From Saccharopolyspora ipomoeae (GTDB lineage: Bacteria > Actinomycetota > Actinomycetes > Mycobacteriales > Pseudonocardiaceae): a stretch of 64,000 nt of DNA. The notes under the pieces were generated by a model. It saw only the letters and a program-made list of their open reading frames with translations, searched no databases and was not told the origin of the DNA. Location: contig NZ_JASAOF010000009.1 of NCBI RefSeq assembly GCF_029952525.1, positions 62,001 through 126,000 on the forward strand, given 5' to 3'. This document shows positions 22,884 to 53,236 of the stretch, piece after piece. The number at the start of each line of letters is the position of its first letter. Position 1 is the first letter of the stretch. Made by a program: the position numbers and the translations under genes.

Positions 22884-22912
22884 TAGACGAGCGGTCGCAC
22901 GTTCGTTAGGCT
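22884..22912 (+). promoter_or_regulatory. Promoter with regulon operator in the spacer (site 1)
   Basis: TAGACG (22884-22889) and TAGGCT (22907-22912) are spaced by 17 bp, and positions 22891-22906 hold GCGGTCGCACGTTCGT, a copy of the 16-bp dyad with a perfect right half. The arrangement is repeated at 36027-36055 and on the other strand at 53074-53103. It drives the cupin/acyl-CoA dehydrogenase operon. Confidence 0.65.
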
Positions 22913-22944
22913 TCGGGCGTTCGAGTTGATGAGGAGGAGCTGAG

Positions 22945-23370
22945 ATGGCCAAGGACGACGTTCCCGTTGTGACCCGGAGCGGGCAGGAGGACACCGGGAC
23001 CGGACAGTCGGGTGGGGCCGTGCGCATCTCGGGTGTCGGTCCGCAGCACACGCCCGCCACCAGGATCTGGTACGGCAAGGTCAGCAACGAGCCGGGGTAC
23101 CGGTCGCTCCCGCACCACCACGGCGAGGCCGAGACCGGCGGTTACGTCCTCAAGGGCAAGGGGCGGATCTGGTTCGGCTCGAACTACGCCCAGTACGTGG
23201 ACCTGGCCGAGGGTGACTTCGTGTTCGTGCCGCCGTTCATGCCGCACGTCGAGGGCAACATGAGCACCACTGAGGAGCTGGTCTGGCTGACCTGCCGGAC
23301 GCCGGACAACATCGTGGTCAACCTCGACGAGGTCGACGACAGCGCCCTCGAGGGCTATCGGCGCGCCTGA
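22945..23370 (+). CDS. Small cupin-domain protein
   Basis: 141 residues with one cupin barrel. Metal-ligand-type residues are seen in LPHHHGEAETGGYVLKGKG (HxH and Glu, first motif) and in PPFMPHVEGN (His, second motif). Single-domain cupins act as dioxygenases, isomerases or ligand sensors, so no reaction can be assigned. GAGGAGGAG precedes the ATG. It is the first gene of an operon with an acyl-CoA dehydrogenase and an FAH-family protein, directly behind operator site 1, so it belongs to the catabolic regulon. Confidence 0.8.
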   Translation: MAKDDVPVVTRSGQEDTGTGQSGGAVRISGVGPQHTPATRIWYGKVSNEPGYRSLPHHHGEAETGGYVLKGKGRIWFGSNYAQYVDLAEGDFVFVPPFMPHVEGNMSTTEELVWLTCRTPDNIVVNLDEVDDSALEGYRRA

Positions 23371-23433
23371 TCAGGCCCCTTCGAACACCGACGTTGAACG
23401 CCGCGCGGCGGGAGGCGGCAGAAAGGCTCGAAC

Positions 23434-24648
23434 ATGCAGAGCGGCACGGCAGGCGGGCGGGATCGTCCCGCGGGATGGAAGGTCGAGGCGGTCGGGACGG
23501 ATTCGTCGGATCAGGCCGAGCTCCGCGAGCTGGTGCGGTCGATCCTCGCCGATCACGCTCCGGACGAGCGCGTCGCCCGGCTCGACGAGTCGGAGACCTT
23601 CGACGAGGAGTTCTACGGTCATCTCGGCGCCGCCGGGCTCATCGGCTTGGGCGCCGACCCGGCGACCGGTGAGGACGCGGATCCCCGGCACGAGATCGTC
23701 GTGCTGGAGGAACTCGGTGCTGGCCACACGTCGATGGCCGTCTGCTTGGTCGTGCAGTACATGGCGCTGCGCCTGCTTAGCCATTACGGCGATGACGAGC
23801 AGCGCAAGCGGGTTCTCGTGCCGCTCGCGGAGGGGAGCGGGCGGTGCGCGTTCGCGCTCTCCGAGGAGGACGGCGGGACCGACATCGCCCGCGCCATGCG
23901 CACGAAGGCTGTCCAGGACGGTTCGGGGTGGGTTCTGTCCGGCCGGAAGACGTGGATCTCGGGTGCGGCGACGTCCGGGTACGCCATCGTGCTGGCCCGC
24001 ACGTCGGAGGACGCGGGCTCGGCGATCGATGGCATCACGATGTTCTTGGTGCCGCTGGACGCCGCCGGGGTCTCCGTGCGGGTGCTCGACACGGCCGGCA
24101 TCCACGGCCTCGACACCTGCGAGGTCACCTTCGACGACGTCCGGCTCGACGGTTCAACGGTGCTGGGCCGGGTGGGGGCGGGCTTCCGGCAGGTCATCGG
24201 CACGCTCAACGGCGAGCGGCTCAACGCCGCTGCTGTGGCGCTGGGAATCGCGCGCGGTGCTCTGCGGAGCGCGGTCGAGTACGCCTCGCAGCGGCAGGCG
24301 TTCGGCCGGAGCATCGGTGGTTTCCAGGCCCTGCAGCACGCTCTGGTCGACGGGGCGGTGCGGGTCGAATCGGCTCGGGGGCTGCTGATCAGGGCCGCTG
24401 ACGCCGCGGGAGCGGGTGAGGCGCAGTCGGACACCTTCTCCGCTATGGCCAAGATCGCGGCCGCTGATGCGGCCACCGACATCACCGACGCGGGGATGCG
24501 GGTCATGGGCGGCGCGGGCTACAGCCGCGAATACCCCATGCAGCGCTACTTCCGCGATGCGCGCCTCTACACGTTCGCGCCGCTGACCAACGAGATGCTG
24601 CGCAACTTCGTCGGCGAGCGTTGGCTCGGCCTGCCTCGCTCTTACTGA
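23434..24648 (+). CDS. Acyl-CoA dehydrogenase (isovaleryl-CoA dehydrogenase-like active site)
   Basis: 404 residues. FAD/substrate motifs CAFALSEEDGGTDIA and SGRKTWISGA, and the C-terminal signature GGAGYSREYPMQRYFRDAR, are intact. The position that carries the catalytic Glu in medium-chain enzymes (IYEGT) reads TFAPLTNE here, with Pro383. A Glu is present at residue 261 in LNGERLNAAA, where isovaleryl- and long-chain acyl-CoA dehydrogenases hold their base. It should therefore be active on branched or bulky acyl-CoAs, producing a 2-enoyl-CoA and passing electrons to ETF. Second gene of the operon driven from operator site 1. Confidence 0.88.
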   Translation: MQSGTAGGRDRPAGWKVEAVGTDSSDQAELRELVRSILADHAPDERVARLDESETFDEEFYGHLGAAGLIGLGADPATGEDADPRHEIVVLEELGAGHTSMAVCLVVQYMALRLLSHYGDDEQRKRVLVPLAEGSGRCAFALSEEDGGTDIARAMRTKAVQDGSGWVLSGRKTWISGAATSGYAIVLARTSEDAGSAIDGITMFLVPLDAAGVSVRVLDTAGIHGLDTCEVTFDDVRLDGSTVLGRVGAGFRQVIGTLNGERLNAAAVALGIARGALRSAVEYASQRQAFGRSIGGFQALQHALVDGAVRVESARGLLIRAADAAGAGEAQSDTFSAMAKIAAADAATDITDAGMRVMGGAGYSREYPMQRYFRDARLYTFAPLTNEMLRNFVGERWLGLPRSY

Positions 24649-24666
24649 ACCGGAGTCGTTGAGACC

Positions 24667-25521
24667 ATGAAGCTGCTGTCCTACCGAAGTGCCGACCGGT
24701 GTTCCTGGGGTGCGCTCGTCGACGACCAGATCGTCGACCTGGCCGCCGTGAACCCGGGTTGGTCGACCTTGGCCCGTGCGCTCGGCGAGGCGGGAACCGA
24801 CGGCATCCGGCACGCGGTCGCTGCATCGGGCACCGCGCACCGGGTCGCGCCGGGCGCCGCGGAGCTCCTGCCGGTGGTCCCGGACCCGGGTAAGATCTTG
24901 TGCGTCGGGCTGAACTTCGAGAAGCACCGCATCGAAACCGGGCGCGAGCGCACCCAACACCCGGTGATCTTCACCCGGTTCCCGGACACCTTCGTCGGTC
25001 ACGGCGCACCGCTCGTCCGCCCGGCTGAGAGCGAGAGCTTCGACTTCGAAGGTGAGCTGGCGCTGGTCATCGGGCGGGGCGGTCGCCGCATCGCGCCGGA
25101 GAACGCGCTGGACCACATCGCGGGGGTCACCTGCCTCAACGACGGTTCGATCCGGGACTTCCAGTCGCACACCCACCAGTTCACGCCGGGCAAGAACTTC
25201 CCGGCGACCGGCGCGATGGGGCCCTGGATGGTCACCCTCGACGAGATCGCGGACCTGTCCGACCTGGAGCTGACGACCCGGCTCAACGGTGTCGAGGTCC
25301 AGCGGGCGCCGCTGTCGGACCTGACCTACTCGATCCCGGAGATCGTCGCCTACTGCTCGTCGTGGACGGAGCTGCGACCGGGCGACGTCATCGCCACCGG
25401 AACGCCGGGTGGCATCGGCGCCCGGCGGGAACCTCCGCTGTGGATGAAGCCCGGGGACGTCTGCGAGGTCGAGGTGTCCGGGATCGGCGTGCTGCGCAAC
25501 GCGATCACCGCCGACGCCTGA
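24667..25521 (+). CDS. Fumarylacetoacetate hydrolase (FAH)-family protein
   Basis: 284 residues. The C-terminal FAH fold begins near residue 75 (KILCVGLNFEKHRIETG). Metal ligands lie in SESFDFEGELALVIGRGGR (E-x-E) and in HIAGVTCLNDGSIRDFQ (Asp), followed by FTPGKNFPATGAMGPW and ATGTPGGIGARREPP. Such enzymes hydrolyse acylpyruvates, decarboxylate oxaloacetate or isomerise ring-cleavage products. Which of these applies is open. It follows the acyl-CoA dehydrogenase by 18 bases in one operon, suggesting a diketo-acid intermediate in the pathway. Confidence 0.85.
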   Translation: MKLLSYRSADRCSWGALVDDQIVDLAAVNPGWSTLARALGEAGTDGIRHAVAASGTAHRVAPGAAELLPVVPDPGKILCVGLNFEKHRIETGRERTQHPVIFTRFPDTFVGHGAPLVRPAESESFDFEGELALVIGRGGRRIAPENALDHIAGVTCLNDGSIRDFQSHTHQFTPGKNFPATGAMGPWMVTLDEIADLSDLELTTRLNGVEVQRAPLSDLTYSIPEIVAYCSSWTELRPGDVIATGTPGGIGARREPPLWMKPGDVCEVEVSGIGVLRNAITADA

Positions 25522-25561: not shown

Positions 25562-25577
25562 ACGTACGCACGTTCGT
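25562..25577. promoter_or_regulatory. Regulon operator (site 2)
   Basis: ACGTACGCACGTTCGT matches the shared dyad at nearly every symmetric position. It lies ten bases before the start of the small leader-type reading frame, where it would overlap the 5' end of the transcript to the MFS gene. Confidence 0.65.
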
Positions 25578-25822: not shown

Positions 25823-27175
25823 ATGTCTGAATCCATCGAATCAACACCGAAGACGGCTCCTCCCATGACGACATCACCCGAGAACGAGCGAGCCGCGCGA
25901 CGGGCCGTGGCCAGCGGTACCTTCGGCACCGCCATGGAGTGGTTCGACTTCGCCGTCTACGGCACGTTGTCCGCCACCCTGTTCCCGACCTTGTTCTTCC
26001 CGAGCTTCGACGACAACACCGCCGTGCTGGCCTCGTTCGCCACCTTCGGCGCGGGCATGCTGGCCCGGCCGCTGGGCGGGATCGTCTTCGGCGTCCTCGG
26101 AGACCGGATCGGCCGGCGCAACGTGCTCATGTTCACGCTCGTGCTCATGGGCATGGCCTCGGTCCTGATCGGACTGCTGCCGACCTACGCCGTCGCCGGG
26201 CTCCTGGCACCGACCCTGCTGGTGATCCTGCGTTTCCTGCAGGGCTTCGCGCTCGGCGGTGAGGCCAGCGGCGCGCAGATCCTCGTCGTCGAACACGCAC
26301 CCGATGACCGCCGGGGAATGATGGGGGGAATCCTGGCCATCGGCTCACCTCTCGCGCAGACGATGGCGTCGGTCGTCCTCGCGGGACTTGCGGCTCTGCT
26401 TTCCGAGGAGGCCTTCGCCTCGTGGGGCTGGCGAGTGCCGTTCCTGCTGGGTGTGCTGCTCCTCGGCGTAGGCATGTTCATCCGCCGTCGCATCGAGGAG
26501 TCGAGCGCCTTCCGGGAGAGCCAGCAGCAGGCCGAGGTCTCTGAGGCCCCTCAGGAACGCGCGCTGGCCGTGCTGCGGCGTCGCCCGGGTACGGTCGTCA
26601 AGCTGGTCCTGTCTTGGGCCGCATCGGCGGGGCTGTTCTGGATCTGCGTCACCTACGCGGTGAACTACATGACCAAGGAACTGGGCTACGCCAACTCCGT
26701 GACCTTCTCGCTGCTGGTGATGGCCAACCTCATCTCGGTGCCCGCCGCGATCTACGGTGGCAGGCTCAGCGACCGGGTGGGCCGCAAGAAGATGTTCATC
26801 GTCGGGCTAACGATGCAGGGGATCGCCGCGGGGACCATGTTCCCGATCTTGCACAGCATGAATTTCCCGGCCAGCGTCGCCGTGGTCGCGTTGGCGCTGT
26901 GCGGGATCCAGATCACCGCTGGCACTCAGGCGGCGTTCTTCTCGGAGTCGCTGCCGACGACGATGCGCTACACCGGGTCGGCGCTGGGCATGACCTTCGC
27001 CGGGCTCATCTTCGGTGCGCCCATGCCGTTCGTGGCCGCGTGGATCTTCCAGAACACGGAGAACGGGGTCGCTGCGCTGACCGGGATCGGTGTCGGGCTG
27101 GTGCTGGTGTCGGTCGTGGCGACGCTGCTGCTGCCGGAGCGCTACAAGCGGGGTCTGGACGACGCGGAGCTCTGA
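25823..27175 (+). CDS. MFS transporter, MHS (metabolite:H+ symporter) type
   Basis: 450 residues, about twelve membrane segments. The opening FGTAMEWFDFAVYGTLSATL, the loop FGVLGDRIGRRNVLM, LRFLQGFALGGEASGAQILV and GRLSDRVGRKKMFI are typical of the alpha-ketoglutarate/shikimate/proline-betaine permease group. ATG 25823 follows GAAGAGATCTCCC; an ATG at 25865 is an alternative. It probably imports an organic acid used by the surrounding acyl-CoA pathway. Behind operator site 2 and ended by a strong hairpin at 27182. Confidence 0.88.
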   Translation: MSESIESTPKTAPPMTTSPENERAARRAVASGTFGTAMEWFDFAVYGTLSATLFPTLFFPSFDDNTAVLASFATFGAGMLARPLGGIVFGVLGDRIGRRNVLMFTLVLMGMASVLIGLLPTYAVAGLLAPTLLVILRFLQGFALGGEASGAQILVVEHAPDDRRGMMGGILAIGSPLAQTMASVVLAGLAALLSEEAFASWGWRVPFLLGVLLLGVGMFIRRRIEESSAFRESQQQAEVSEAPQERALAVLRRRPGTVVKLVLSWAASAGLFWICVTYAVNYMTKELGYANSVTFSLLVMANLISVPAAIYGGRLSDRVGRKKMFIVGLTMQGIAAGTMFPILHSMNFPASVAVVALALCGIQITAGTQAAFFSESLPTTMRYTGSALGMTFAGLIFGAPMPFVAAWIFQNTENGVAALTGIGVGLVLVSVVATLLLPERYKRGLDDAEL

Positions 27176-27223: not shown

Positions 27224-27317
27224 GCGAACGAGCGTTCGTCTCTGAGGGTGATGTGACCTGCAGTTCTTGACCAGAAGTCGTCCACGAGTCTAGTTTGGCA
27301 AACGAGCGCACGTTCGT
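27224..27317 (+). promoter_or_regulatory. Promoter of the carboxylase operon with two operators (sites 3 and 4)
   Basis: TTGACC (27267-27272) and TAGTTT (27291-27296) with an 18-bp spacer form the promoter. Site 4, ACGAGCGCACGTTCGT at 27302-27317, is the best match to the dyad and covers the expected transcription start. Site 3, GCGAACGAGCGTTCGT at 27224-27239, lies 78 bp upstream. Two sites could allow cooperative or looped repression. Confidence 0.75.
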
Positions 27318-27334
27318 TAATGAGGGAGAGATCG

Positions 27335-29145
<1,811 letters not shown>

Positions 29146-29149
<4 letters not shown>

Positions 29150-29895
29150 GCACCGGAACCTCTCTGATCACCGGAGCCGCAGGCGGTTTGGGATCGGCCA
29201 TCGCGCGTCGGCTGGCATCGCAGGGACGTTACGTGGTGTGCCTCGACCTCGAGCAGGACGCGGCGCGCACGAACGCGGAGGAGATCGCGGAGAACGGCGG
29301 CAGCGCCGTCGGGTTCGGCGTGGACATCACCGACGAGGCCTCGGTGCACGAGCTGCGCGAGACCCTGCTCGCGCGGGACATGCTGCCGCAGCACGTGATC
29401 AACGCGGCGGGCATCATGTTCCGCGGGCAGCTCGACACCACTGACACCGCGACCTTCCGCAAGGTGCTCGACGTCAACGTGACCGGTGCCTACACGGTGA
29501 CCCGCGAGTTCGCCGGTGACCTGGCCGCCAGCGGTGCGGGACGGGTGGTCAACATCGGGTCGATCGCAGGGATGAACGGCTACGAGTTCACCGCCTACGC
29601 CACGTCCAAGGGCGCGGTGGTCAACTTGACCAGGGCGCTGGTGCTCGACTTCTGGGGCAAGGGCGTGACCGTGAACGCGGTCTGCCCGGGGCCGATGCGC
29701 ACGCCGATGCTCAACACGGCCGCCATGGAGGCATTTCTCCGCAAGACGCCGACCCGGCACATCTCAAGCGCCGACGAGGTCGCCGGCGTGTGCGCGTTCC
29801 TGCTGTCCGAGGATGCCGCGAACATCAACGGCCAGACCCTCGTCGTCGACGGCGGTGCGACGGCGGTCTTCCGCTTCACCGACGAGGAGGCGTGA
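29146..29895 (+). CDS. SDR-family oxidoreductase
   Basis: 249 residues with [16 protein letters not shown] (NAD binding), NAAG, a catalytic Ser in [10 protein letters not shown] and YATSK. The C-terminal [16 protein letters not shown] is the usual FabG-like end. It lacks the GQGRSHA-type loop of mycofactocin-coupled SDRs, so ordinary NAD(P) use is expected, perhaps on a 3-hydroxyacyl-CoA. Its ATG overlaps the carboxylase stop by four bases and its stop overlaps the next start, so it is translated as part of the operon. Confidence 0.85.
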
Positions 29896-30776
29896 TGAAG
29901 CCCTACCGATCCCTGCTGTTCGTGCCTGGCCACAAACCCGACTGGGCCGACAAGGGAATCCGCGCCGGAGCGCACGCGCTCATCCTGGACCTCGAGGACG
30001 CGGTTCCCGCCGAGGCGAAGGACGAGGCCCGCACGGCAACCGCCGCCACGATCGACCGCCTCGCCGGTGGCCGGACCGGTCTGGTGGTCCGGGTCAACCC
30101 GCTGGAGACCGACCTGTTCGGCAAGGACGTCGCGGCCGTCGTTCGCCCCGGTCTGACCGCATTGCTGCTGCCCAAGGTCTACGGGCGCGACGACGTCCTG
30201 GCCTACGACGCGCTGGTCACCGCGGCCGAGATCGAACGCGGGCTGCCGCGCGGGTCCGTGGGCCTGATCCCGTCGCTGGAGACGGCGCGGTCTTTGACCA
30301 ATGTGGACGAGATCGCCTCGGCTCCTCGCGTGGTCAGCTTGATGGCCGCCGCGGCGAAGGACGCCGACATCTCCCGCGAGGTCGGCTTCACCTGGAGCCC
30401 CGGCGGCCTGGAAACCCTGTACCTGCGCAGCAAGGTCGTGCTTGCGGCGCGATCGGCCGGGCTGGCGCACGTCGTGCTCGGGTTGTGGCAAGACCTGCGC
30501 GATCTCGACGGGCTGCGTGCCTTCGCCCGCGCCAACCACGACCTCGGCTTCGGCGGTCAGGTCGTCATCCACCCGTCGCACGTCGGGCCGGTCAACGAGA
30601 CTTACACGCCCGGCGCGGCGGAGCTCGATCGGCTGCGACGGCTGGTCGAGGCATACGAGGCGGGTGCCCGCGAAGGTCAGGGGGCGGTGATGTTCGAGGG
30701 CGAGCACATCGACCTCGCCCACGCCCAGAACGCCCGATCCGCCCTGGCTCTGGCCGGGCACAACGAGGAGGAATGA
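29895..30776 (+). CDS. HpcH/HpaI aldolase / citrate lyase beta (CitE-like) family lyase
   Basis: 293 residues. The opening [38 protein letters not shown] (acidic metal/substrate loop), [14 protein letters not shown] and [10 protein letters not shown] are the CitE-like hallmarks, and [19 protein letters not shown] closes the barrel. Stand-alone CitE-like proteins cleave malyl-, citramalyl- or 3-hydroxy-3-methylglutaryl-type CoA esters into acetyl-CoA or acetoacetate and a second product. Placed with two MaoC hydratases and a biotin carboxylase, it probably performs the C-C cleavage that ends the pathway. The ATG overlaps the preceding stop. Confidence 0.87.
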
Positions 30777-30778
30777 CC

Positions 30779-31243
30779 ATGGCAGGCCTGTACTTCGAGG
30801 AGTTCGTGGTCGGCGAGGTCCACCGGCACGCCGTGACCCGCACGGTCACCGAGACCGACAACCTGCTGTTCACGACGCTGACGATGAACCCGCAGCCGCT
30901 GCACCTCGACGAGGAGTTCGCCAAGGGATCGATGTTCGGCACGCGGATCGTGAATTCGGTGTTCACCCTCGGTCTGGTCGCGGGCATCCACGTCAACGAC
31001 CTGACGCTGGGCACCACCGCGGGCAATCTGGGCTTCGAGGACGTGCAGTTCCCGAAACCGGTGCTGATCGGTGACACCCTCCGCGTCGAGAGCGAGGTGC
31101 TGGAGGTCCGCGAATCGAAGAGCCGTCCGGACACCGGCATCGTGAAGCTGGAGCACCGCGCGCTCAACCAGCGCGACGAGCTGGTCTGCCGCCTGCGTCG
31201 CTCCGCCCTGATGCACCGCCGTCCCACCGAGGTGAGCGCATGA
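30779..31243 (+). CDS. MaoC-like hydratase (1)
   Basis: 154 residues, hot-dog fold. The sequence [34 protein letters not shown] holds the hydratase-2 type Asp and His ([13 protein letters not shown]), as in mesaconyl-/itaconyl-CoA hydratases. A GAGGAGG seven bases upstream supports ATG 30779 over the ATG two codons before. It likely adds water to an unsaturated carboxylated CoA ester made by the carboxylase, giving the lyase its substrate. The next MaoC gene overlaps it by four bases; the two may form a heteromer or act on different substrates. Confidence 0.85.
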
Positions 31244-32460: not shown

Positions 32461-32490
32461 GGATGGCGAACGGCTGCTTGTTCGCCATCC
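32461..32490. terminator. Hairpin between the carboxylase operon and the TetR gene
   Basis: Perfect 11-bp arms GGATGGCGAAC and complement, loop GGCTGCTT, fifteen bases after the SDR stop. The centre (GCGAAC...GTTCGC) resembles the symmetric operator at 53149 but with four extra bases, so a double role as autoregulatory site for the TetR gene is conceivable though weaker. Confidence 0.65.
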
Positions 32491-46115: not shown

Positions 46116-46117
46116 CG

Positions 46118-47167
46118 ATGCAGAGAAATTCCGATGCCGTCCGCGCGCCCGACTCCACCGACCTGGCGGACGCGTCTGCACCAACGCAGAAAGGGACCCT
46201 CGCACGGGCGAGGTGGGGCGGTCCGGTTCGCTCCATCCTGATCGTCACCGGACTTCTGTTCGCGGTGAGCGGTCTGGTCGCTCCGCAGACGCTGTCACCG
46301 ACCTCGCTGCTGTCCATGGTGCCGTTCGCCGCGGTGCTCGCCATCGCCGCCGCAGGTCAGACACTCGTGATCCAACAACGAGGCCTGGATCTCTCCGTTC
46401 CGGGTAACATCAGCCTGGCGGCCGTCACGCTCGGCGTCTTCCACGCCCGAAACGGGACTTCGCTGGCCGTCACGCTGGGCGTGGTGGCAGCCGTCGCGGT
46501 GGTGGTCGGATTGGCCAACGGCTTGCTCGTGGCCAAGCTCGCCATCACGCCGCTGATCAGCACGTTGGCTGTCAACGCGTTGTTGCTCGGTGCGTTGCAG
46601 GCCTATTCTGGCGGGTCACCGGCCACAGCACCGCCCGCGTTGAGCGAGTTCGTCTCTACCAAGTTCCTCGGGCAGCAGGTCGTGGTGTGGGTGGCGCTCC
46701 TGGTCGTGGTGGTGCTGGCGGTCTTGGCGCGCAAGACCGTCGCCGGGCGGCGGTTCGTCGCAGTGGGCGCCAATCCCTCCGCCGCGCGGGCCGCCGGTGT
46801 CGCGGTGAACCGCTACGTCGTCGGCGCCTACGTCGTCGGCTCGCTGTGCATGGCCTTGGCCGGTGTGCTGCTCGCGGGCTACCTGAAGACCACCGCCACC
46901 ACGGTCGGTGATCCCTACCTGCTTCCGGTCATCGCCGCCGTGATCATCGGCGGCACACCGCTGACCGGGGGGCGCGGCAGTGTGGTCGCCAGTGCCGTCG
47001 CCGCCCTGTTCCTCTCGCAGCTGGGCCAGCTCGTTCTCACGCTCGGGGCACCATCCTCGATCCAGATCCTCATCCAGGCGGTGGCGATCGCGGTCGCCGC
47101 GGTCCTCCGCGGGATTGGAGATGGTGGTGCGAGGGTGCCATGGCTGCGGCGTGTGCGAGGAACTTGA
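46118..47167 (+). CDS. ABC transporter permease (RbsC type)
   Basis: 349 residues with about nine or ten hydrophobic segments. LVIQQRGLDLSVPGNISLAA, VGLANGLLVAKLAITPLIST, ANPSAARAAGVAVNRY and AAVIIGGTPLTGGRGSVVAS are the family's repeated motifs, matching those in the fused partner (residues 515-830). Start ATG 46118 has GAAGGG six bases upstream; ATG 46112 overlaps the preceding stop codon and is possible too. It probably pairs with the permease half of the fusion protein to form the membrane channel. Confidence 0.9.
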   Translation: MQRNSDAVRAPDSTDLADASAPTQKGTLARARWGGPVRSILIVTGLLFAVSGLVAPQTLSPTSLLSMVPFAAVLAIAAAGQTLVIQQRGLDLSVPGNISLAAVTLGVFHARNGTSLAVTLGVVAAVAVVVGLANGLLVAKLAITPLISTLAVNALLLGALQAYSGGSPATAPPALSEFVSTKFLGQQVVVWVALLVVVVLAVLARKTVAGRRFVAVGANPSAARAAGVAVNRYVVGAYVVGSLCMALAGVLLAGYLKTTATTVGDPYLLPVIAAVIIGGTPLTGGRGSVVASAVAALFLSQLGQLVLTLGAPSSIQILIQAVAIAVAAVLRGIGDGGARVPWLRRVRGT

Positions 47168-47289: not shown

Positions 47290-47338
47290 TTGACGAGAAG
47301 AGCAGCCTGACCTTAGGGTCAAGCGAACGGTCGTTTGT
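47290..47338 (+). promoter_or_regulatory. Promoter of the aldehyde dehydrogenase gene with operator (site 10)
   Basis: TTGACG (47290-47295) and TAGGGT (47314-47319), 18-bp spacer. The dyad copy GCGAACGGTCGTTTGT at 47323-47338 covers the expected transcription start, as at the carboxylase promoter. Confidence 0.65.
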
Positions 47339-47419: not shown

Positions 47420-48874
47420 ATGAGTACGAGGCAGGACGTGGGGTTGAGGAGCTTCTCCAAGCTGTTCATCGGAGGGCGGTGGGTCGACCCCGTGAGCGAG
47501 GAGACGCTGTCGGTCGTCTCGCCGAGCTCCGAGGAAGTGATCGCGACCGTGCCGTCGGCGTCTCCTGCGGACGTCGACGCCGCCGTGGCGGCCGCGCGGC
47601 GGGCCTTCGACGACGGTCCGTGGCCGAGGATGAGCGCGGCGGAACGGGCGGGATACCTCTCGCGCATCCGGGACGAGGTCGCCGCTCGCGTCGAGGACAT
47701 GGAGCACGCGTTCAGCGCCGAGGTCGGCGCTCCTGCTGGGGTGAGCAAGGCGTTCCACCAGAACGCGCTGGCCGCGTGGGACGACGCGATCACCGTGCAC
47801 CAGCGAGCCGCGTTCGAGGAGAAGCGGAGCTGGGGAGACGGTGAGGGGGTCCTGGTCAGGGAGCCTGTGGGCGTCGTGGCCGCGATCATCCCGTGGAACG
47901 GCCCGGTGGCGCAGGCGTCGATGAAGTACGCCCCCGCGCTCGCCGCCGGCTGCACTGTCGTGCTCAAGCCCTCTCCCGAGGCTCCGCTGAGCACGCTGAT
48001 CCTCGCGGAAGCCATCGAAGCCGCCGGGCTTCCCGAGGGTGTGGTCAGCATGGTGCCCGCCGGGCGGGAGGTGGGCGAACACCTCGTCCGGCACCCCGAC
48101 GTGGACAAGGTCTCCTTCACCGGCAGCACCGCCGCGGGCAAGCGGATCATGAGCATCTGCGGTGAGCGCATCGCCCGGGTTTCCCTGGAACTCGGTGGAA
48201 AATCGGCCGCCATCGTCGCTGATGACGTTCCCGTCGGCGACGTGGTGCCCTCGCTCGTGCAGGCCGGGGTCATCAACTCCGGTCAGGTGTGCGCTGCTCT
48301 GACGCGAGTCCTGGTGCCGCGGCACCGCCAGCAGGAGTTCGCCGAGGCGATCGCCGGGGAGATGGAGTCCTACTCCGTCGGCAGTCCGTTCGAGGAGGGG
48401 ACCGACCTCGGGCCGCTGGTGAGCGAGCAGCAGCGGGAGCGGGTGGAGAGCTATGTCCGCCTCGGCGTCGAGGAAGGCGCCAGGTTGATCACCGGCGGTG
48501 CGCGGCCGGAAGGCCTGGAGCGCGGCTGGTACGTGGCGCCGACGCTGTTCGCCGACGTGCGCAACGACATGCGCATCGCCCGGGAGGAGATCTTCGGGCC
48601 GGTCATGTGCCTCATCCCCTTCGACGGGATCGACGAGGCCGTGGCCATCGCCAACGACTCCGACTACGGGCTCTCCGGCGCGGTCTACGCCGAGGACACC
48701 GCGCTCGCCGAGCGCGTCGCGCGCCAGGTGCGCACTGGCCAGATCTGCATCAACGGCTGGGCCATGCGGATCGACCAGCCCTTCGGCGGCTACAAACAGT
48801 CCGGCCTCGGCAGGGAGGGAAACCTCGAGGGGCTGGGGGCGTTCCTGGAGTACAAGCTCATCCAGCACTCCTGA
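47420..48874 (+). CDS. NAD(P)-dependent aldehyde dehydrogenase
   Basis: 484 residues. KLFIGGRWVDP opens the fold; VVAAIIPWNGPVAQASMKYA, SFTGSTAAGKRI, the base Glu in SLELGGKSAAI and the nucleophile Cys in NSGQVCAALTRV are intact, with EEIFGPVMC and FGGYKQSGLGREG at the C-terminus. It oxidises an aldehyde to its acid, the natural next step after the alcohol dehydrogenases around it and before CoA ligation. It lies alone behind operator site 10, with a strong hairpin before the next gene. Confidence 0.92.
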   Translation: MSTRQDVGLRSFSKLFIGGRWVDPVSEETLSVVSPSSEEVIATVPSASPADVDAAVAAARRAFDDGPWPRMSAAERAGYLSRIRDEVAARVEDMEHAFSAEVGAPAGVSKAFHQNALAAWDDAITVHQRAAFEEKRSWGDGEGVLVREPVGVVAAIIPWNGPVAQASMKYAPALAAGCTVVLKPSPEAPLSTLILAEAIEAAGLPEGVVSMVPAGREVGEHLVRHPDVDKVSFTGSTAAGKRIMSICGERIARVSLELGGKSAAIVADDVPVGDVVPSLVQAGVINSGQVCAALTRVLVPRHRQQEFAEAIAGEMESYSVGSPFEEGTDLGPLVSEQQRERVESYVRLGVEEGARLITGGARPEGLERGWYVAPTLFADVRNDMRIAREEIFGPVMCLIPFDGIDEAVAIANDSDYGLSGAVYAEDTALAERVARQVRTGQICINGWAMRIDQPFGGYKQSGLGREGNLEGLGAFLEYKLIQHS

Positions 48875-48900
48875 GGCCGAGGAACGTCAAGACCGGTCGT

Positions 48901-48940
48901 TGCGCTGCCCGGCTGCCCTTCGAGGTGGCCGGGCAGCGCA
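48901..48940. terminator. Hairpin between aldehyde and alcohol dehydrogenase genes
   Basis: Perfect 13-bp arms TGCGCTGCCCGGC (48901-48913) and GCCGGGCAGCGCA (48928-48940). A half-site of the regulon dyad (AACGAACGATTCGG) follows at 48947-48960, too weak to call an operator. Confidence 0.7.
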
Positions 48941-48970
48941 GCGATGAACGAACGATTCGGAAGGATGTCG

Positions 48971-49999
48971 ATGAAGGGCTACGCATTTCCCGGTGGCAGG
49001 GAGGTCGCGGTCGTGGAACGGCCCACGCCGTCGCCCGGGCCGGGAGAGGTGCTCATCAAGTCGGGCACGTCGTCGGTGTGCGGATCGGACCTGCACGGCT
49101 ACCGGGCCCCGAAGCAGGACCGCGCGCCGTTCGCCGCGGTCGTCAGCGGGCACGAGCCCGTCGGTGAGGTGGTCGCCGTCGGCGACGGCGTCGCGTGGCC
49201 GACGGTCGGCGAGCGCGTCGTCGTCTACCACGTGGGCGGGTGCGGCGAGTGCGGCTCGTGCCACGAGCGCGACTACAAGGCGTGCCCCGGGGCGACCGAA
49301 CCCGACAACAGCATGACCTTCGGCCGAGACGGTTCGAACGCCGATCACGTCCTCGTCCCCGCAGGCCAGGTGCTGCCGCTGCCCGAGGACTTCTCCTACC
49401 CGGAGGGATCGGTCCTGAGCTGCAACTTCGGGACGGCGTGGGGCGCGGTTCGCAACGCCTTCAGCTTCCCCGGGGGCACGCTCGCGGTGTGGGGGCTCGG
49501 TCCCGTCGGACTCAACTGCGTGCTCATCGCCCGCGCGCTCGGCATGAAGGTCATCGGGGTGGACATCTCCGAGGGCCGGCGCGAGGTCGCCGAGGGGGTC
49601 GGAGCGACGGTCGTCGACGGCGCGCGCTCCGACGTGGTCGAGGCGGTCCGGAGCGTGACCGGCGGCGACGGGCCCGACGCGATCATCGACACCACCGGGG
49701 TCGGTGCCGTGCACGCGATCCTGGTCTCGGCCGTCAAGCCCAGGGGAACGGTCGTCCTCGTGGGACTGGGGCACGAGACGTCGGTGGGGCCGGTGCCCGA
49801 GGTCGTGCTCAAGCAGGTGACCATCAAGGGATCCTGGCTCTACGACGTCGCCGACTGGCCCGAGATGCTCGACTTCGTGCGGCAGCACGAGATCGACCTC
49901 ATGACCACTGTGGACAAGGTGGTCCCGATCGCCGAGTTCGAGACGATGCTCAAGGAGGCGGACGCGGCTTCCGCGGGGAAGATCGTGTTCACCTGGTGA
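48971..49999 (+). CDS. Zinc-dependent alcohol dehydrogenase (MDR superfamily)
   Basis: 342 residues. Catalytic zinc ligands: Cys in SSVCGSDLHGY and His/Glu in SGHEPVGEVVAVG. The structural zinc site GGCGECGSCHERDYKACPG has the four cysteines. NAD fold: LAVWGLGPVGLNCVLIA. Three Met codons are available; 48971 has GGAAGG six bases upstream and gives the normal MKGYAFPGG start. It likely oxidises a secondary or polyhydroxy alcohol. It is distinct from the NDMA-dependent enzyme at 51876-52985 and from the LacI-controlled enzyme at 16775. Confidence 0.88.
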   Translation: MKGYAFPGGREVAVVERPTPSPGPGEVLIKSGTSSVCGSDLHGYRAPKQDRAPFAAVVSGHEPVGEVVAVGDGVAWPTVGERVVVYHVGGCGECGSCHERDYKACPGATEPDNSMTFGRDGSNADHVLVPAGQVLPLPEDFSYPEGSVLSCNFGTAWGAVRNAFSFPGGTLAVWGLGPVGLNCVLIARALGMKVIGVDISEGRREVAEGVGATVVDGARSDVVEAVRSVTGGDGPDAIIDTTGVGAVHAILVSAVKPRGTVVLVGLGHETSVGPVPEVVLKQVTIKGSWLYDVADWPEMLDFVRQHEIDLMTTVDKVVPIAEFETMLKEADAASAGKIVFTW

Positions 50000-50045: not shown

Positions 50046-50393
50046 TCAGTCTCCGACGACGACGTGGTCTTCGAGCACGACGACGTGGTGATCTCCGATG
50101 AAGTTCTCGATGTCGGCGAGCGCGCGCTGACCGGCCTCGGACGCCCACCCGGCTTCCATCGCCTCGGGGCTCTCGTAGTCGAGGACGGCGATCCCGTCGA
50201 CGCCGAAGGAGTTGTCGGGCTCGGAGAGGTCGCCCTGCGGAACGATGTGGCGTTGGACGTACCGGGTCACGCCCGGCACTTCGGCGGCGAGCGGAGCGTG
50301 CTGCTCCCGCCAGTAGTCGCAGAACTCGGCGAAGGACATGCCGGGCTTGCGGCTGAACAAGGCGATGGTGCGCACGGGTCTGGTGTCTGACAT
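50046..50393 (-). CDS. EthD-family small protein
   Basis: 115 residues. VRTIALFSRKPGMSFAEFCD, YWREQHAPLAAEVPGVTRYV and a long closing helix plus HHVVVLEDHVVV fit the EthD/dimeric alpha+beta barrel domain. GAGGAACCACC precedes the ATG. It is the last gene of the leftward operon with the NDMA-dependent alcohol dehydrogenase and a mycofactocin-coupled SDR. The role is unknown; possibly stabilising or handling a reactive ketone or aldehyde. Confidence 0.82.
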   Translation of the reverse strand: MSDTRPVRTIALFSRKPGMSFAEFCDYWREQHAPLAAEVPGVTRYVQRHIVPQGDLSEPDNSFGVDGIAVLDYESPEAMEAGWASEAGQRALADIENFIGDHHVVVLEDHVVVGD

Positions 50394-50446
50394 GGTGGTT
50401 CCTCGCATTCGCCGGAGAGCGGCTGGGATGTGCGGTGGCCGGATGC

Positions 50447-51301
50447 TCAACCGGCGTACTTGCTGAGCATCCCGGCGTCGACCGGGAGCGCGGTGCCGGT
50501 GATGTAGCGCGACTCGTCGGAGGCGAGCCACAGCACGGCCTGCGAGACGTCGTTCATCTCCACCCACGGCTGCGGCAGCATGTTGATGCGGCGCAGCACG
50601 TCGGCACCGTCGTCGAGGGTGGGTTGGTCGAGATCGGGCCGGAAGATCTTGGCCGAAACCGGGTTGTCGATCATCGGTGTTCGCACGTTGGTGGGGTGGA
50701 TGGTGTTGACGCGGATGCCGTGCTCGGCGACCTCGTTGGCCAGCGCGGTCGCAAGGCCGACGACGCCGTGCTTGGCGGCGCAGTACTGGGCGACGTTGGG
50801 GATGCCGCGCAGTCCCGCGATCGAGCTGATCGCGATGACCGATCCGCCGCGGCCACCGGCGATCAGGTGCGGGACGGTGGCCTTGGTCGTCTGCCACACC
50901 CCGCTGAGGTTGATGTCGATGACGGTGGACCACTCGTCGCGGGTCAGCTCCCAGGACGGCTTAGGGGAGCCGAGCACGCCGGCGTTGGCCACGACCACGT
51001 CGAGACCGCCGAGCCGTTCCACCGCGTCGTCGACCGCGGGGGCGAGCTCCTCGTCGCGGACATCGGCCTCCACGACCACCGCGCGGCGGCCCAGAGCCTC
51101 GACGGCCTGGGCCGCCGCCTTCAGCTCGGAGGACGAGGGCAGCGGGTAGCCGACCCCGTCGATCGGTCGGACGGCGTCGACGAGGACGACATCGGCGCCG
51201 TGCTCGGCGAGGGTGACCGCGTGCGAGCGTCCTTGGCCGCGGGCCGCTCCGGTGATGAGCGCGACCTTGCCCGCGAGCCGGCCGTGTTCGGGTGTGGTCA
51301 T
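50447..51301 (-). CDS. Mycofactocin-coupled SDR-family oxidoreductase
   Basis: 284 residues. [20 protein letters not shown], then VTLAEHGADVVLVDAVRP, is the signature of the mycofactocin-coupled SDR subfamily: [10 protein letters not shown] plus a longer insert after the second strand (residues about 42-60) that traps the nicotinamide cofactor. NAGV, SSIAGLRG and [12 protein letters not shown] complete the active site; the end is YITGTALPVDAGMLS. Members keep NAD(H) bound and pass electrons to mycofactocin instead of releasing NADH. Third gene of the leftward operon controlled at 53.08 kb. Confidence 0.92.
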   Translation of the reverse strand: MTTPEHGRLAGKVALITGAARGQGRSHAVTLAEHGADVVLVDAVRPIDGVGYPLPSSSELKAAAQAVEALGRRAVVVEADVRDEELAPAVDDAVERLGGLDVVVANAGVLGSPKPSWELTRDEWSTVIDINLSGVWQTTKATVPHLIAGGRGGSVIAISSIAGLRGIPNVAQYCAAKHGVVGLATALANEVAEHGIRVNTIHPTNVRTPMIDNPVSAKIFRPDLDQPTLDDGADVLRRINMLPQPWVEMNDVSQAVLWLASDESRYITGTALPVDAGMLSKYAG

Positions 51302-51364
51302 GGAACTCCTTCCGCTGGACTGGTTCGACCGTGCTGGGGACCTCGTGGTGCGGACCGCTCCGGA

Positions 51365-51865
51365 TCACCCGCGCAGCGGCTGCTTGACCCAGCCCTGGTC
51401 CCAGTTGGAGACCTGGTGGGTCTTGCCGAGGAGTTCCTGGAAGTACCAGCGACCGTCGCGCTTCACGAACTGGTCGGTGTAGTGGATCGTGATGAGGACG
51501 GGGTCCTTCTCCGTCGGGTCGTCGAGGCTCTCGATCGTGCACAGGCACAGCAGGTAGAAGTGCCCGGTGGCGGTGCGGCCGTCCTCGTCGAGCTCGACCT
51601 GTGGGTTGAGCACGTGGTGCAGCGCCCAGCTGATCTTCTTCGACAGGGCGCGGAAGTGGGCCTTGATCTCCTCGTGGCCCACCATCGATCCGCCCTCGCC
51701 GTCGACGACCCAACGTCCGTCGTCGGCGAAGCAGCTCGCGATGCCGTCGGGGTCGTAACCGTCGTCGCAGAAGGCGGCGTAGCGGAACTTCAGTTGTTCG
51801 ATCGCCCGGACGTCTTCGAGCCGGGTAATCCGGCGCGTCAGGTCGGCGAGATCGGTGTCGGTCAT
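51365..51865 (-). CDS. SnoaL-like (NTF2-fold) protein
   Basis: 166 residues: ITRLEDVRAIEQLKFRYAAF, DDGYDPDGIASCFADDGRWV, MVGHEEIKAHFRAL and YFQELLGKTHQVSNWDQGW outline an NTF2-like cone as in SnoaL/ring-hydroxylating dioxygenase beta/steroid isomerase relatives. Such proteins act as isomerases, dehydratases or non-catalytic binders. ATG 51865 is supported by GAGGTGG five bases upstream. It follows the NDMA-dependent dehydrogenase by ten bases and likely acts on the same ketone product. Confidence 0.8.
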   Translation of the reverse strand: MTDTDLADLTRRITRLEDVRAIEQLKFRYAAFCDDGYDPDGIASCFADDGRWVVDGEGGSMVGHEEIKAHFRALSKKISWALHHVLNPQVELDEDGRTATGHFYLLCLCTIESLDDPTEKDPVLITIHYTDQFVKRDGRWYFQELLGKTHQVSNWDQGWVKQPLRG

Positions 51866-51875
51866 GCTGTCCACC

Positions 51876-52985
51876 TCAGTGTTCGATGTCGAGGACTCCG
51901 CGGATGTTCTTGTCGGCGAGAAGATCGTCGTAGCCCTGGTTGACGCCTTCGAGCGGGTAGCGGCTGGTGATCAGCTCGTCGAGCTTGAGCTGGCCCTTCT
52001 GGTAGAGCTGGACGATCTTCTTGATGTCGACGTGCGGTGCGCCGGAGCCGAAGAGGCTGCCCACGAGCCGCTTCTCGTAGAGGGTGAGCTCCAGGCTCGG
52101 GATCTCCAGCTTGGTCTCGGGATTGGCCAGCGCGGTCACCACGACCGTGCCCGCTTTGCGGACCAGCGCGAAGGCGTCCGAGACGACCTGCGGTTCGACG
52201 AGCCCGACGGTGACGATGCAGGAATCGGCGCCCTGTCCGCGCGTCTCGCTCCACACGAACTCGTGAGCCTCAGCGGCGTCGGCGAAGGCGTGGGTGGCTC
52301 CCAGCTTGAGCGCCATCTCCCGCTTGAACGGTGCCGGGTCGACCGCCACGACCATCTCCGCACCTGCGTGGGCGGCTCCCTGCACGGCGTTGATGCCGAT
52401 CCCGCCGACCCCGTAGACGACGGTGGTGTCGCCGGGACGGGTGTCGGCCGCGTAGACCGCCGAGCCCCAGCCGGTCGGGACGCCGCAGGCCGCGATCGCC
52501 AGCACGTCGAGCGGCACGTCGGGCTCGACGACGACCAGCGACGAGTCTGGGATGACGTTCCACTGCGAGAACGTGCCCAGCACGTCGACCCCGCCCATGC
52601 CCTTGCCGCGGCCGTGCAGGCGCTGGGTGCCGTCGAGCATCGTGCCCTGCATGAGGAACGCACCGTTGTCGCACAAATTCGACTTGCCCATCAGGCAGAA
52701 CCGGCATCGCCCGCACTGCGGCATCCACGAGCTGATGAAGTGGTCGCCCGGCTTGACGTGGGTGACGCCCGGGCCCACCTCCTCGACGACACCGGCACCT
52801 TCGTGGCCGCCCACCATGGGAGGTTCGATCACCAGGTCTCCGTGCCGGAGGTGCTCGTCCGAGTGGCACAACCCCGCGTGGTCGTAGCGGACGAGGACCT
52901 CGCCGGCCTTGGGCGGGTCCAGCTCCAGTTCGGTGATCTCGAAGTTCCCGGTGCTCTGCCACATCACGGCGGCTTTGGTCTTCAC
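51876..52985 (-). CDS. NDMA-dependent alcohol dehydrogenase (Rxyl_3153 type, mycofactocin-associated)
   Basis: 369 residues from the GTG at 52985 (VKTKAAVMWQSTGNF), with GAAGGAG eight bases upstream; the N-terminus KTKAAV is the family standard. Zinc ligands lie in AGLCHSDEHL and GGHEGAGVVEEVG; structural zinc cysteines in PQCGRCRFCLMGKSNLC; NAD fold GVGGIGINAVQGA. This class holds NAD tightly, needs an artificial acceptor such as NDMA in vitro, and in vivo depends on mycofactocin for electron removal. The mftA-E operon 10 kb away supplies that. First gene of the leftward operon with SnoaL-like, SDR and EthD genes. Confidence 0.92.
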   Translation of the reverse strand: MKTKAAVMWQSTGNFEITELELDPPKAGEVLVRYDHAGLCHSDEHLRHGDLVIEPPMVGGHEGAGVVEEVGPGVTHVKPGDHFISSWMPQCGRCRFCLMGKSNLCDNGAFLMQGTMLDGTQRLHGRGKGMGGVDVLGTFSQWNVIPDSSLVVVEPDVPLDVLAIAACGVPTGWGSAVYAADTRPGDTTVVYGVGGIGINAVQGAAHAGAEMVVAVDPAPFKREMALKLGATHAFADAAEAHEFVWSETRGQGADSCIVTVGLVEPQVVSDAFALVRKAGTVVVTALANPETKLEIPSLELTLYEKRLVGSLFGSGAPHVDIKKIVQLYQKGQLKLDELITSRYPLEGVNQGYDDLLADKNIRGVLDIEH

Positions 52986-53073
52986 AGGTCCCACTCCTTC
53001 CGGTTCTCCACGCTGAGTCCCGGGCCCCCGGGGCCCGGCGTAGCGGGCGCGTACGGGCGGGCCGAGTAGCTCG

Positions 53074-53103
53074 AAGCTAGACGAACGGGCGCTCGTTTTT
53101 CAA
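53074..53103 (-). promoter_or_regulatory. Promoter of the NDMA-dehydrogenase operon with operator in the spacer (site 12)
   Basis: Read on the reverse strand: TTGAAA (53103-53098), then 18 bp, then TAGCTT (53079-53074). The spacer contains the dyad ACGAACGGGCGCTCGT (53081-53096), which departs from the consensus at one position. Confidence 0.75.
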
Positions 53104-53148
53104 GGGAATCGTCGGATGGTGTCTCGGTGCAACCGAATCGGGTCGCGT

Positions 53149-53164
53149 GCGAACGATTGTTCGC
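53149..53164. promoter_or_regulatory. Regulon operator (site 13)
   Basis: GCGAACGATTGTTCGC, a near-perfect palindrome with GCGAAC/GTTCGC arms, halfway between the divergent promoters of the NDMA-dehydrogenase and LLM operons. It may bridge repression of the two. Confidence 0.6.
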
Positions 53165-53187
53165 CTAAGTGGCGTCGGGCGGAAATC

Positions 53188-53236
53188 TTGACGGGGCCGG
53201 GCAGCGACCTTAAGTTCCGAACGAGCGACCGTTCTC
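53188..53236 (+). promoter_or_regulatory. Promoter of the LLM/SDR operon with operator at the start (site 14)
   Basis: TTGACG (53188-53193), 17-bp spacer, TAAGTT (53211-53216), then the dyad copy ACGAGCGACCGTTCTC (53221-53236) over the expected transcription start. Confidence 0.68.

Follow-up and report, generated by a model that had tools for sequence, protein, structure and literature searches.

A 16-bp dyad with a consensus of about RCGAACGnnCGTTCGY recurs ahead of the majority of gene groups in a 30-kb catabolic cluster within the 64,000-nucleotide stretch of DNA analysed here (the window). Judged from sequence, it very probably serves as operator for the local repressor, the TetR-family protein encoded at 32558-33175, because the same dyad accompanies close relatives of this protein in many bacteria. 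When an acyl-CoA ligand is added to this regulator, operator and repression, the combined reading is still rather probable. The enrichment of the dyad, its noncoding placement, its overlap with promoter-like sequences and its co-inheritance with one TetR clade and a recognition helix were all computed. The genes and dyads are given in Table 1.

Clustering of the dyad

All 12 copies listed in a first-pass annotation of this DNA were found in place, and all 12 were, as that annotation had held, noncoding, lying no more than 400 nt upstream of a start according to our own simple gene caller. A symmetric weight matrix was built from these 12 sites and applied, with a cut-off of 15 bits and merging of sites, to the window and to 951,714 bp of the genome outside it; the rest of the genome was scanned with IUPAC patterns. 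The matrix returned 12 merged sites in the window versus 3 in the 951,714 bp outside. This background of 3 sites was coding throughout (3/3). On leave-one-out, each of the 12 sites reached at least 13.8 bits. The 18 top-scoring positions of the window, second registers of the same sites included, all fell within 22.8-53.3 kb, and the next-best position (10800) scored 13.5 bits. Column-permuted symmetric matrices served as controls: the 12 sites of the window compare with a permuted mean of 0.35 and a maximum of 7 (200 permutations), and the 3 sites in the own genome outside it with 4.05 and 31 (60 permutations). The high permutation maxima, here and below, may come from permutations near the original matrix.

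With one mismatch allowed, RCRAACGNNCGTTYGY occurred at 29 places genome-wide, 9 of which were inside the 30-kb region; 5 of the 15 off-region matches checked (out of 20) were noncoding, and the regulator may thus have unlinked targets elsewhere in the genome. The strict form RCRARCGNNCGYTYGY displayed no genome-wide enrichment (the genome has 9 copies, including 4 in the region, and 21 relatives from the genus have 0-14), so it is the local clustering and the placement of the dyad that count as evidence. A loose IUPAC consensus was dropped as genome-scan evidence, being too loose at 69% G+C; it gave 21 matches in the window at up to 3 mismatches (8.5 expected), and when up to 2 mismatches were allowed across the genome it gave 112, compared with 59 for the reversed pattern.

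Table 1. Genes of the cluster and dyads, in order of position; promoter elements and start sites are predictions.
Feature	Position	Strand	Matrix score (bits)	Remarks
Dyad 1	22887..22906		15.9	20-bp string; 16-bp match 22891-22906, left arm poor; spacer of cupin/ACAD/FAH promoter (-35 TAGACG 22884, -10 TAGGCT 22907)
Cupin	22945..23370	+		Weak cupin-family matches; orthologs beside TetR elsewhere
Acyl-CoA dehydrogenase	23434..24648	+		
Fumarylacetoacetate-hydrolase family protein	24667..25521	+		
Dyad 2	25562..25577		21.9	Upstream of MFS symporter gene
MFS metabolite:H+ symporter	25907..27175	+		Start from gene caller
Dyad 3	27224..27239		22.6	Upstream copy at BC...TetR operon promoter
Dyad 4	27302..27317		21.8	Covers start site, BC...TetR operon
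Biotin carboxylase-BCCP subunit, acyl-CoA carboxylase	27320..29149	+		
SDR	29146..29895	+		
HpcH/HpaI lyase, malyl/citramalyl-CoA lyase-like	29895..30776	+		
MaoC-type hydratase 1	30773..31243	+		
MaoC-type hydratase 2	31240..31722	+		
SDR	31712..32446	+		
Extra weak dyad	32466..32481		11.7	Upstream of TetR gene; absent from the earlier 12-site list
TetR-family repressor (putative)	32558..33175	+		TetR_N + TetR_C_24
OYE-family flavoprotein, NemA-like	33239..34357	-		
Carboxyltransferase (CT) subunit, acyl-CoA carboxylase	34384..35946	-		
Dyad 5	35977..35992		19.6	Alternative register 35973; CT gene promoter
Dyad 6	36030..36045		20.8	End of -35 and spacer, CoA ligase promoter
Acyl-CoA ligase	36091..37620	+		
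EthD-domain protein	37617..37973	+		Gene caller start 37638
Second mycofactocin cassette, mftA-B-C-D-E	38183..41841	+		Without own dyad
Dyad 7	42408..42423		19.5	Alternative register 42404; upstream of ABC importer operon
Dyad 8 (weak)	42468..42483		16.2	Upstream of ABC importer operon
Sugar-type ABC importer: SBP, ATPase, permease	42501..47167	+		SBP start may be 42633
Dyad 9	47323..47338		20.4	Covers start site, ALDH operon
Aldehyde dehydrogenase and Zn alcohol dehydrogenase	47420..49999	+		
EthD	50046-50402	-		Group 50046..52985
Mycofactocin-coupled SDR	50447-51301	-		Same group
Protein without family match	51365-51874	-		Same group
NDMA-dependent alcohol dehydrogenase	51876-52985	-		Same group
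Dyad 10	53081..53096		19.5	Spacer of minus-strand NDMA-ADH operon promoter
Dyad 11	53149..53164		18.2	Middle of divergent ADH/LLM region
Dyad 12	53221..53236		16.1	Covers start site, LLM/mft-SDR operon
F420-type LLM oxidoreductase and mycofactocin-coupled SDR	53343..55107	+		

Placement at predicted promoters

Promoter overlap was assessed with rule-based predictions and counted without a random control; a promoter candidate was present in 8 of the 10 target genes, and the best candidate of each was touched by a dyad. The first-pass annotation had placed four copies in the spacer between -35 and -10 elements, and this held for three: the dyads at 22884 and 36027 are located in or mostly in the spacer of predicted plus-strand promoters, and that at 53081 lies in a spacer on the minus strand, with a predicted -35 at 53103 and -10 at 53079. 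The fourth, at 42401, does have a TTGACA, but no TAnnnT follows it at a distance of 16-19 bp, and the claim fell there. Coverage of the start site, proposed for 27302, 47323 and 53221, was borne out by predicted starts inside all three dyads, and dyad 5 overlies the -10 predicted for the carboxyltransferase gene and lies next to the start. No sigma70-like promoter was found for dyad 2 and the MFS gene by the promoter rule used. A 32-codon open frame starts directly after dyad 2.

The dyads at 27224, 53149 and 42408 stand away from predicted core promoters, and the 53-78 bp between neighbouring copies would permit looping or upstream action, as might be expected if TetR bound the dyad as an activator or dual regulator instead of a simple repressor. 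We regard such a mode of action as highly improbable, because for 8 of the 10 target genes the dyad is predicted to occupy the spacer or to cover the -10 or the start site, which is the classic position of a repressor.

The dyads are also conserved site by site in comparison with Amycolatopsis taiwanensis, in which dyads 4 and 6 are identical; the weak dyad at 32466 is largely conserved, the A. taiwanensis copy differing at two positions.

The TetR protein and its orthologs

Both the TetR_N helix-turn-helix and the PF17932 C-terminal domain of the protein scored above the gathering cut-off, and its AlphaFold model (pLDDT 89.8) matches TetR structures. Previously described as the only TetR gene of the region, 32558-33175 was indeed the sole TetR_N match in the window among at least 106 in the genome, a tally from scoring 150 of 254 first-look candidates; another match lies on the same contig, at 12.4 kb. 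The protein scored 68.9 bits against the SACE_7040 family (NF050111; cut-off 250) and 29.5 bits against the MftR family (TIGR03968; cut-off 224.9), below the cut-off in both cases. In silico, putative operators are located near the TetR gene and near its targets, the copy nearest the TetR gene being weak.

The dyad follows TetR orthologs into other genera, and none was found around the neighbouring clade; the link between the dyad and the local TetR thus has good comparative support. Among 19 actinobacterial ortholog loci (L137-L155, 47-91% identity), 17 carry 3-9 dyads at 14 bits; L147 and L153 carry none at this threshold, though a site of 12.3 bits precedes the TetR gene of L147. Of the 71 sites in the 16 loci that were tested, 70 were noncoding. 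At 15 bits or more, 76 sites were found in 361,173 bp of ortholog loci (permuted mean 2.4, maximum 50; 200 permutations) versus 0 in 363,834 bp of 20 homolog loci with 38-44% identity (0.95 and 10; 200 permutations). The recognition helix reads VGSLYNHI in the window TetR and in 19/19 orthologs, and RGPSLY[KR]HV in 20/20 of the site-less homologs. In the tree, a 20-row clade (SH-aLRT 98) holds 18 site-positive rows, versus none in a 14-row clade. Independently of the matrix, 16 ortholog loci contained 12 noncoding copies of AACGNNCGTT and a single coding one, and its noncoding-to-coding density ratio (31-fold) was the highest of the 12 palindromes listed. In favour of autoregulation, 8 of the 19 actinobacterial orthologs have a site of at least 15 bits in the 300 nt that precede the TetR gene, as do, for the preceding 350 nt, 15 of 37 proteobacterial or other homologs (from L156-L195); many alphaproteobacterial homologs with the same helix had no such site near the gene. 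The other homologs (L156-L196 without L181 and L188) gave 42 sites in total (permuted mean 4.25, maximum 21; 60 permutations).

These results bear on whether the dyad is instead the operator of a TetR-type regulator encoded elsewhere, the local TetR having another target. The many TetR_N proteins of the genome would supply candidates, Thermus PaaR has been reported to recognise a core of the AACGnnCGTT type as well (PMC6651687), and, among 12 homolog loci outside the clade (L094-L105), L100 has 4 sites and L094, L098 and L104 have one each. Since the helices of L098, L100 and L104 differ from VGSLYNHI, the dyad is not wholly clade-specific. A regulator encoded elsewhere is nevertheless unlikely, given that the dyad co-occurs with the local TetR orthologs and their recognition helix across genera, that a trans-acting protein would need co-inheritance in every case, and that the window offers no second TetR_N match.

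Comparison with known regulators

By sequence, profile and structure comparison, the nearest solved structures to the local TetR are PfmR, 3him, AibR with isovaleryl-CoA and KstR2; PfmR and KstR2 are CoA-linked regulators. PfmR of Thermus thermophilus (PDB 3vpr) is the best solved relative (E 4.7e-23 by sequence, 3.9e-36 by profile), but is about 31% identical. AibR of Myxococcus xanthus (PDB 5k7f, 5k7h, 5k7z) has the same TetR fold and is second best by profile (E 2.5e-30; TM-score about 0.8); its effector is isovaleryl-CoA according to the PDB titles, whereas its identity is 25-29% and its host lineage is another. The acyl-CoA responsiveness proposed in the first-pass annotation is supported at the level of homology to PfmR, AibR and KstR2.

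The same annotation had compared the core to that of PaaR, and the core is indeed shared. PaaR (TTHA0973) of Thermus acts on phenylacetate genes through the operator CNAACGNNCGTTNG, or AACnAACGTTnGTT by selection (PMC6651687), and the core AACGnnCGTT is common to CNAACGNNCGTTNG and the dyad; the core alone does not confer PaaR membership, and nothing in this analysis files the protein as PaaR. No paa operon (ring-epoxidation genes) was identified among the annotated cluster genes, 51365-51874 being without family.

BkaR (Rv2506) of mycobacteria (PMC3920632) and the PccD homolog of Mycolicibacterium (PMC11596240) are TetR repressors that precede acyl-CoA carboxylase and branched-chain genes, and BkaR is autoregulated. 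By eye, the BkaR operator core given in PMC3920632, GTTA(N)T(N4)A(N)TAAC, does not match AACGnnCGTT, and the BkaR structure (6yj2) is a more distant match to our protein. MftR, the TetR regulator of a mycofactocin locus, is reported with a long-chain acyl-CoA effector and the operator T-N2-GGCA-N5-TGCC-N2-A (PMC8728441), which differs from the dyad. LiuQ, reported as unique to betaproteobacteria (PMC5343134), is a TetR regulator of branched-chain amino acid utilization genes. Literature searches bearing on the substrate and the motif turned up no account of this cluster or operator among the open-licence papers listed, judged by title and start of abstract.

Predicted targets and ligand

Among the predicted targets is a pathway with a carboxylase, MaoC, an HpcH-lyase and a CoA ligase, and the cluster is part of a putative island of 47 kb next to tRNA-Pro. 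Propionyl-CoA enzymes are closer to the carboxyltransferase than methylcrotonyl- or geranyl-CoA enzymes are, which makes a simple pathway of the geranyl or leucine type less likely; the substrate is possibly a beta-branched or terpenoid-like compound. Transport, mycofactocin-dependent oxidation and acyl-CoA steps had been proposed to share one signal. The mycofactocin-dependent dehydrogenases have dyads and fit this proposal, but the biosynthesis genes do not, with no dyad upstream of mftA and no matrix site of 15 bits or more from 36046 to 42403. In this cassette, MftC, MftD and MftE were assigned by NCBIfam, while mftA was recognised from the letters at its C-terminal end and mftB from where it lies; the genome has another mycofactocin cassette besides it. 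The 210-nt gap before mftA contains a hairpin that is ordinary for its composition (z -1.37), and upstream of mftA a GGCA-N4-TGCC resembles the MftR operator with a different spacing. Read-through into the cassette from the ligase promoter is possible.

We infer DNA binding, repression and a CoA ligand for the local TetR. By binding dyads that occupy the -35/-10 spacer or cover the start site, a TetR dimer would keep RNA polymerase from eight or nine of the cluster's promoters, including the one that drives its own operon. A CoA thioester from the pathway would bind the C-terminal domain and release the protein from DNA, the ligand most likely being a branched acyl- or enoyl-CoA from the CoA ligase or acyl-CoA dehydrogenase of the cluster. 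Import, mycofactocin- and F420-type oxidation, CoA activation, carboxylation and cleavage would then be turned on together.

TetR ligands vary widely, and the regulon holds importers and alcohol and aldehyde dehydrogenases, which would also suit release by a free substrate, be it the compound taken up or an intermediate at the alcohol or aldehyde stage. We give this a real but minor chance, as three of the nearest solved relatives, AibR (by PDB title), PfmR and KstR2, share the TetR fold and are CoA-linked, and the two alphaproteobacterial homolog loci that were annotated, one from Bradyrhizobium and one from Magnetospirillum, adjoin genes of CoA pathways, namely those for acyl-CoA dehydrogenase, biotin carboxylase and HMG-CoA lyase. 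The best reading is that a branched acyl-CoA releases the repressor, as the structure and sequence neighbours PfmR, AibR and KstR2 suggest.

Tentatively, Actinomycetota and Alphaproteobacteria may both have retained a single TetR family, with an almost unchanging recognition helix and a single type of dyad, to sense beta-branched acyl-CoAs, the family serving leucine-type carboxylase operons in proteobacteria and recruited in actinobacteria to a larger mobile pathway with mycofactocin- and F420-type oxidoreductases, in which a single acyl-CoA signal would control the whole catabolic island. For the catabolic cluster beside this TetR in many actinobacteria, the analysis names an operator, a regulator and a set of targets that can be tested directly, and mycofactocin- and F420-type enzymes would share one switch in this genome. 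Naming the inducer class, acyl-CoA, could lead to the substrate, and, should the ligand be confirmed, the operator-regulator pair may be of use as an expression switch that responds to acyl-CoA.

The dyad is concentrated at predicted promoters of one cluster

All 12 copies of the 16-bp dyad that the first-pass annotation placed between 22.9 and 53.2 kb were found in the sequence, and in leave-one-out scoring with the symmetric matrix built from them none fell below 13.8 bits. The top 18 matrix positions of the 64-kb window, counting second registers, all fell within 22.8-53.3 kb. When 48 stretches of the same genome (951,714 bp) were scanned at 15 bits, the dyad was not equally common elsewhere, with 12 sites in the window versus 3 outside. 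The intergenic placement was likewise upheld by a simple gene caller based on codon usage, which had 29 window genes as its training set and agreed with the family-annotated genes: 12/12 window sites were noncoding and at most 400 nt upstream of a start, in a window with a noncoding share of 9.4%, and the background sites were coding in 3/3 cases at 15 bits and in 6/7 at 13.5 bits. In the complete 6.63-Mb genome, 29 places matched RCRAACGNNCGTTYGY at one mismatch (9 in the 30-kb cluster, 20 elsewhere), against 8 for its reversed control; 15 of the 20 off-cluster matches were classed as 10 coding and 5 noncoding, and one further match, at C47:172009 on the contig carrying the window, was coding.

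A plain -35/-10 rule gave promoter candidates for 8 of the 10 target genes, the best of each touched by a dyad, a raw count without a random baseline; the symporter and TetR genes had no candidate by this rule. The dyad lay in, or mostly in, the spacer of the predicted cupin, CoA-ligase and NDMA-alcohol-dehydrogenase promoters, covered the predicted start of the biotin-carboxylase, aldehyde-dehydrogenase and LLM promoters, and covered the predicted -10 of the carboxyltransferase promoter. The promoter claimed at 42401 had no fitting -10; for the ABC importer the rule selected a weaker promoter, with its -10 covered by the dyad at 42468. Immediately after the second dyad, some 320 nt ahead of the start predicted for the symporter gene, a short open frame begins that has a good ribosome-binding site and is possibly a leader or a decayed start region.

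Coordinates and gene content of the features discussed (plain positions refer to the window; L089 is the contig stretch to its right; operon membership was assigned from gene order)
Feature	Position	Strand	Detail
tRNA-Pro(GGG) gene	22421-22495
43-bp repeat, first copy	22453-22495		last 43 bp (3' end) of the tRNA gene
43-bp repeat, second copy	C47:131326-131368 (L089:5326-5368)		exact direct repeat, about 47 kb on
Open frame after second dyad	25588-25686		32 codons
Window TetR gene	32558-33175	+
mft cassette	38183-41841	+	mftA-B-C-D-E
Other mft cassette	C11, near 271 kb		own TetR gene in mftR position
Predicted ABC importer promoter	42454-42484
Open frame with two matches	L089:3092-4243		MFS transporter match, then enolase C-terminal domain (MR_MLE_C)
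Dyads of L100	2042, 2164, 12517, 17622		L100 = G092:C110:13000-32999
Dyad operon			cupin, acyl-CoA dehydrogenase, FAH protein
Dyad operon			MFS symporter
Dyad operon			biotin carboxylase, SDR, HpcH/HpaI lyase, two MaoC-type hydratases, SDR, TetR
Dyad operon			carboxyltransferase, OYE-family enzyme
Dyad operon			CoA ligase, EthD protein
Dyad operon			sugar-type ABC importer
Dyad operon			aldehyde dehydrogenase, Zn alcohol dehydrogenase
Dyad operon		-	NDMA-dependent alcohol dehydrogenase (TIGR03989), mycofactocin-coupled SDR (TIGR03971), EthD
Dyad operon			LLM enzyme, second TIGR03971 SDR

The dyad accompanies TetR orthologs in other genera

The window holds one of the 106 TetR_N matches found in the genome (150 of the 254 first-look candidates scored), bearing out the view that its TetR gene is the only one of the region. 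Searching genome contigs with an alignment of three TetR sequences gave 63 loci. The window protein shares 91% identity with its counterpart in Amycolatopsis taiwanensis, 78% with that of a Pseudonocardiaceae assembly, 63-67% with Pseudonocardia acaciae, Embleya and Microbispora proteins, and 47-56% with proteins of Rhodococcus, Gordonia, Intrasporangium, Microbacterium and others. Among the 19 actinobacterial ortholog loci, 17 carried 3-9 dyads at 14 bits, and L147 and L153 had none at that threshold; at 15 bits the set held 76 sites in 361,173 bp. The loci of 20 homologs of another clade (38-44% identity) had 0 sites at 15 bits in 363,834 bp. Two more distant actinobacterial homologs, excluded from both sets, had two sites (L181) and one (L188) nearby. 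The gene caller covered 16 of the 19 ortholog loci, where the noncoding share is 20%; of their 71 sites, 70 were noncoding and 67 had a gene start no more than 400 nt downstream. In a matrix-free count over these 16 loci, 12 copies of AACGNNCGTT lay in noncoding DNA and one in coding DNA; the string ranked fifth by number among such palindromes and, among the 12 listed, first by far in density ratio (31-fold). The dyads at 27302 and 36030 recur letter for letter in A. taiwanensis, where the best-matching strings for the 35977 dyad and the dyad upstream of the TetR gene show one and two changes, respectively, and the counterparts of 25562 and 27224 are more diverged.

In a tree of 56 TetRs, rows counted as site-positive if the locus held two sites reaching 15 bits or one close to the start of the TetR gene. 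The window TetR grouped with the 19 orthologs (SH-aLRT 98); 18 of these 20 rows were site-positive, and all 14 rows of another clade were site-negative. The recognition-helix string VGSLYNHI was present in 20/20 members of the ortholog group and was replaced by RGPSLYKHV or RGPSLYRHV in 20/20 of the site-less set; it was also common to nearly all of the homologs L156-L195, of which 37 were neither actinobacterial nor short, 15 with a site of at least 15 bits in the 350 nt preceding the TetR gene and 22 without. Among 12 further homolog loci, four dyads occurred at L100 and a single one at each of L094, L098 and L104, indicating related specificity, or chance, outside the clade; these dyads count against an exclusive link of the dyad to the window TetR clade. 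The L100 cluster encodes a branched-chain-type ABC importer, a CoA ligase, an acyl-CoA dehydrogenase and a more distant TetR (37%).

Extent and genomic setting of the cluster

Many cluster genes were found again within 10 kb either side of TetR orthologs in other genera, and the mft cassette was absent from those same intervals. This cassette is the second in the genome, with no TetR gene adjoining mftA. From 55.3 kb onward no dyad reached 15 bits; the genes there include an AcoR/DhaR-like regulator, an esterase and a Baeyer-Villiger-type monooxygenase.

The repeat of the tRNA-Pro 3' end, together with the absence of a TetR ortholog at E 1e-32 from the 21 other genus genomes searched, places the regulon on a candidate genomic island, and the two 43-bp copies likely mark the limits of an integrated 47-kb island that includes it. 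No complete tRNA was found at the second copy, and no integrase among the cluster genes and the three genes annotated inside the right end of the island, where annotation extended up to L089:4243. Near that end, a single open frame joins MFS and MR_MLE_C matches, an odd combination.

Predicted ligand and relation to known regulators

The nearest solved structures to the window TetR, by sequence and by the fold of a confident model, were PfmR, a Rhodococcus TetR (3him), AibR with isovaleryl-CoA, and KstR2. In the two loci annotated, the Bradyrhizobium and Magnetospirillum homologs have acyl-CoA dehydrogenase, biotin carboxylase and HMG-CoA lyase genes nearby, a leucine-type set. We take Rv2498c of Mycobacterium tuberculosis to be an HpcH/CitE-type lyase. 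It acts as an (R)-HMG-CoA and citramalyl-CoA lyase in leucine and itaconate breakdown (PMC6689899). From these structures, neighbours and lyase role, we infer that the inducer of the window TetR would be a branched acyl-CoA from the cluster pathway. Methylcrotonyl- and geranyl-CoA carboxylases are less close to the carboxyltransferase than propionyl-CoA carboxylases are, which speaks against a simple geranyl- or leucine-type pathway; a beta-branched or terpenoid substrate is our guess. The TetRs of Bradyrhizobium lablabi (L158) and Magnetospirillum molischianum (L180) share the recognition helix, have sites resembling the dyad, and are candidate alphaproteobacterial leucine regulators.

The AACGnnCGTT core is the one reported for Thermus PaaR (PMC6651687), although no phenylacetate operon was recognised among the genes annotated in the window cluster. 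BkaR (PMC3920632) has a similar role but a different operator. An assignment as MftR was ruled out by family score and by the different operator (PMC8728441). No earlier account of the operator or cluster was found in the open-licence literature, judged by title and abstract start of the best matches. We rate the window TetR as a new regulator of the acyl-CoA type with unusually well-marked predicted sites.
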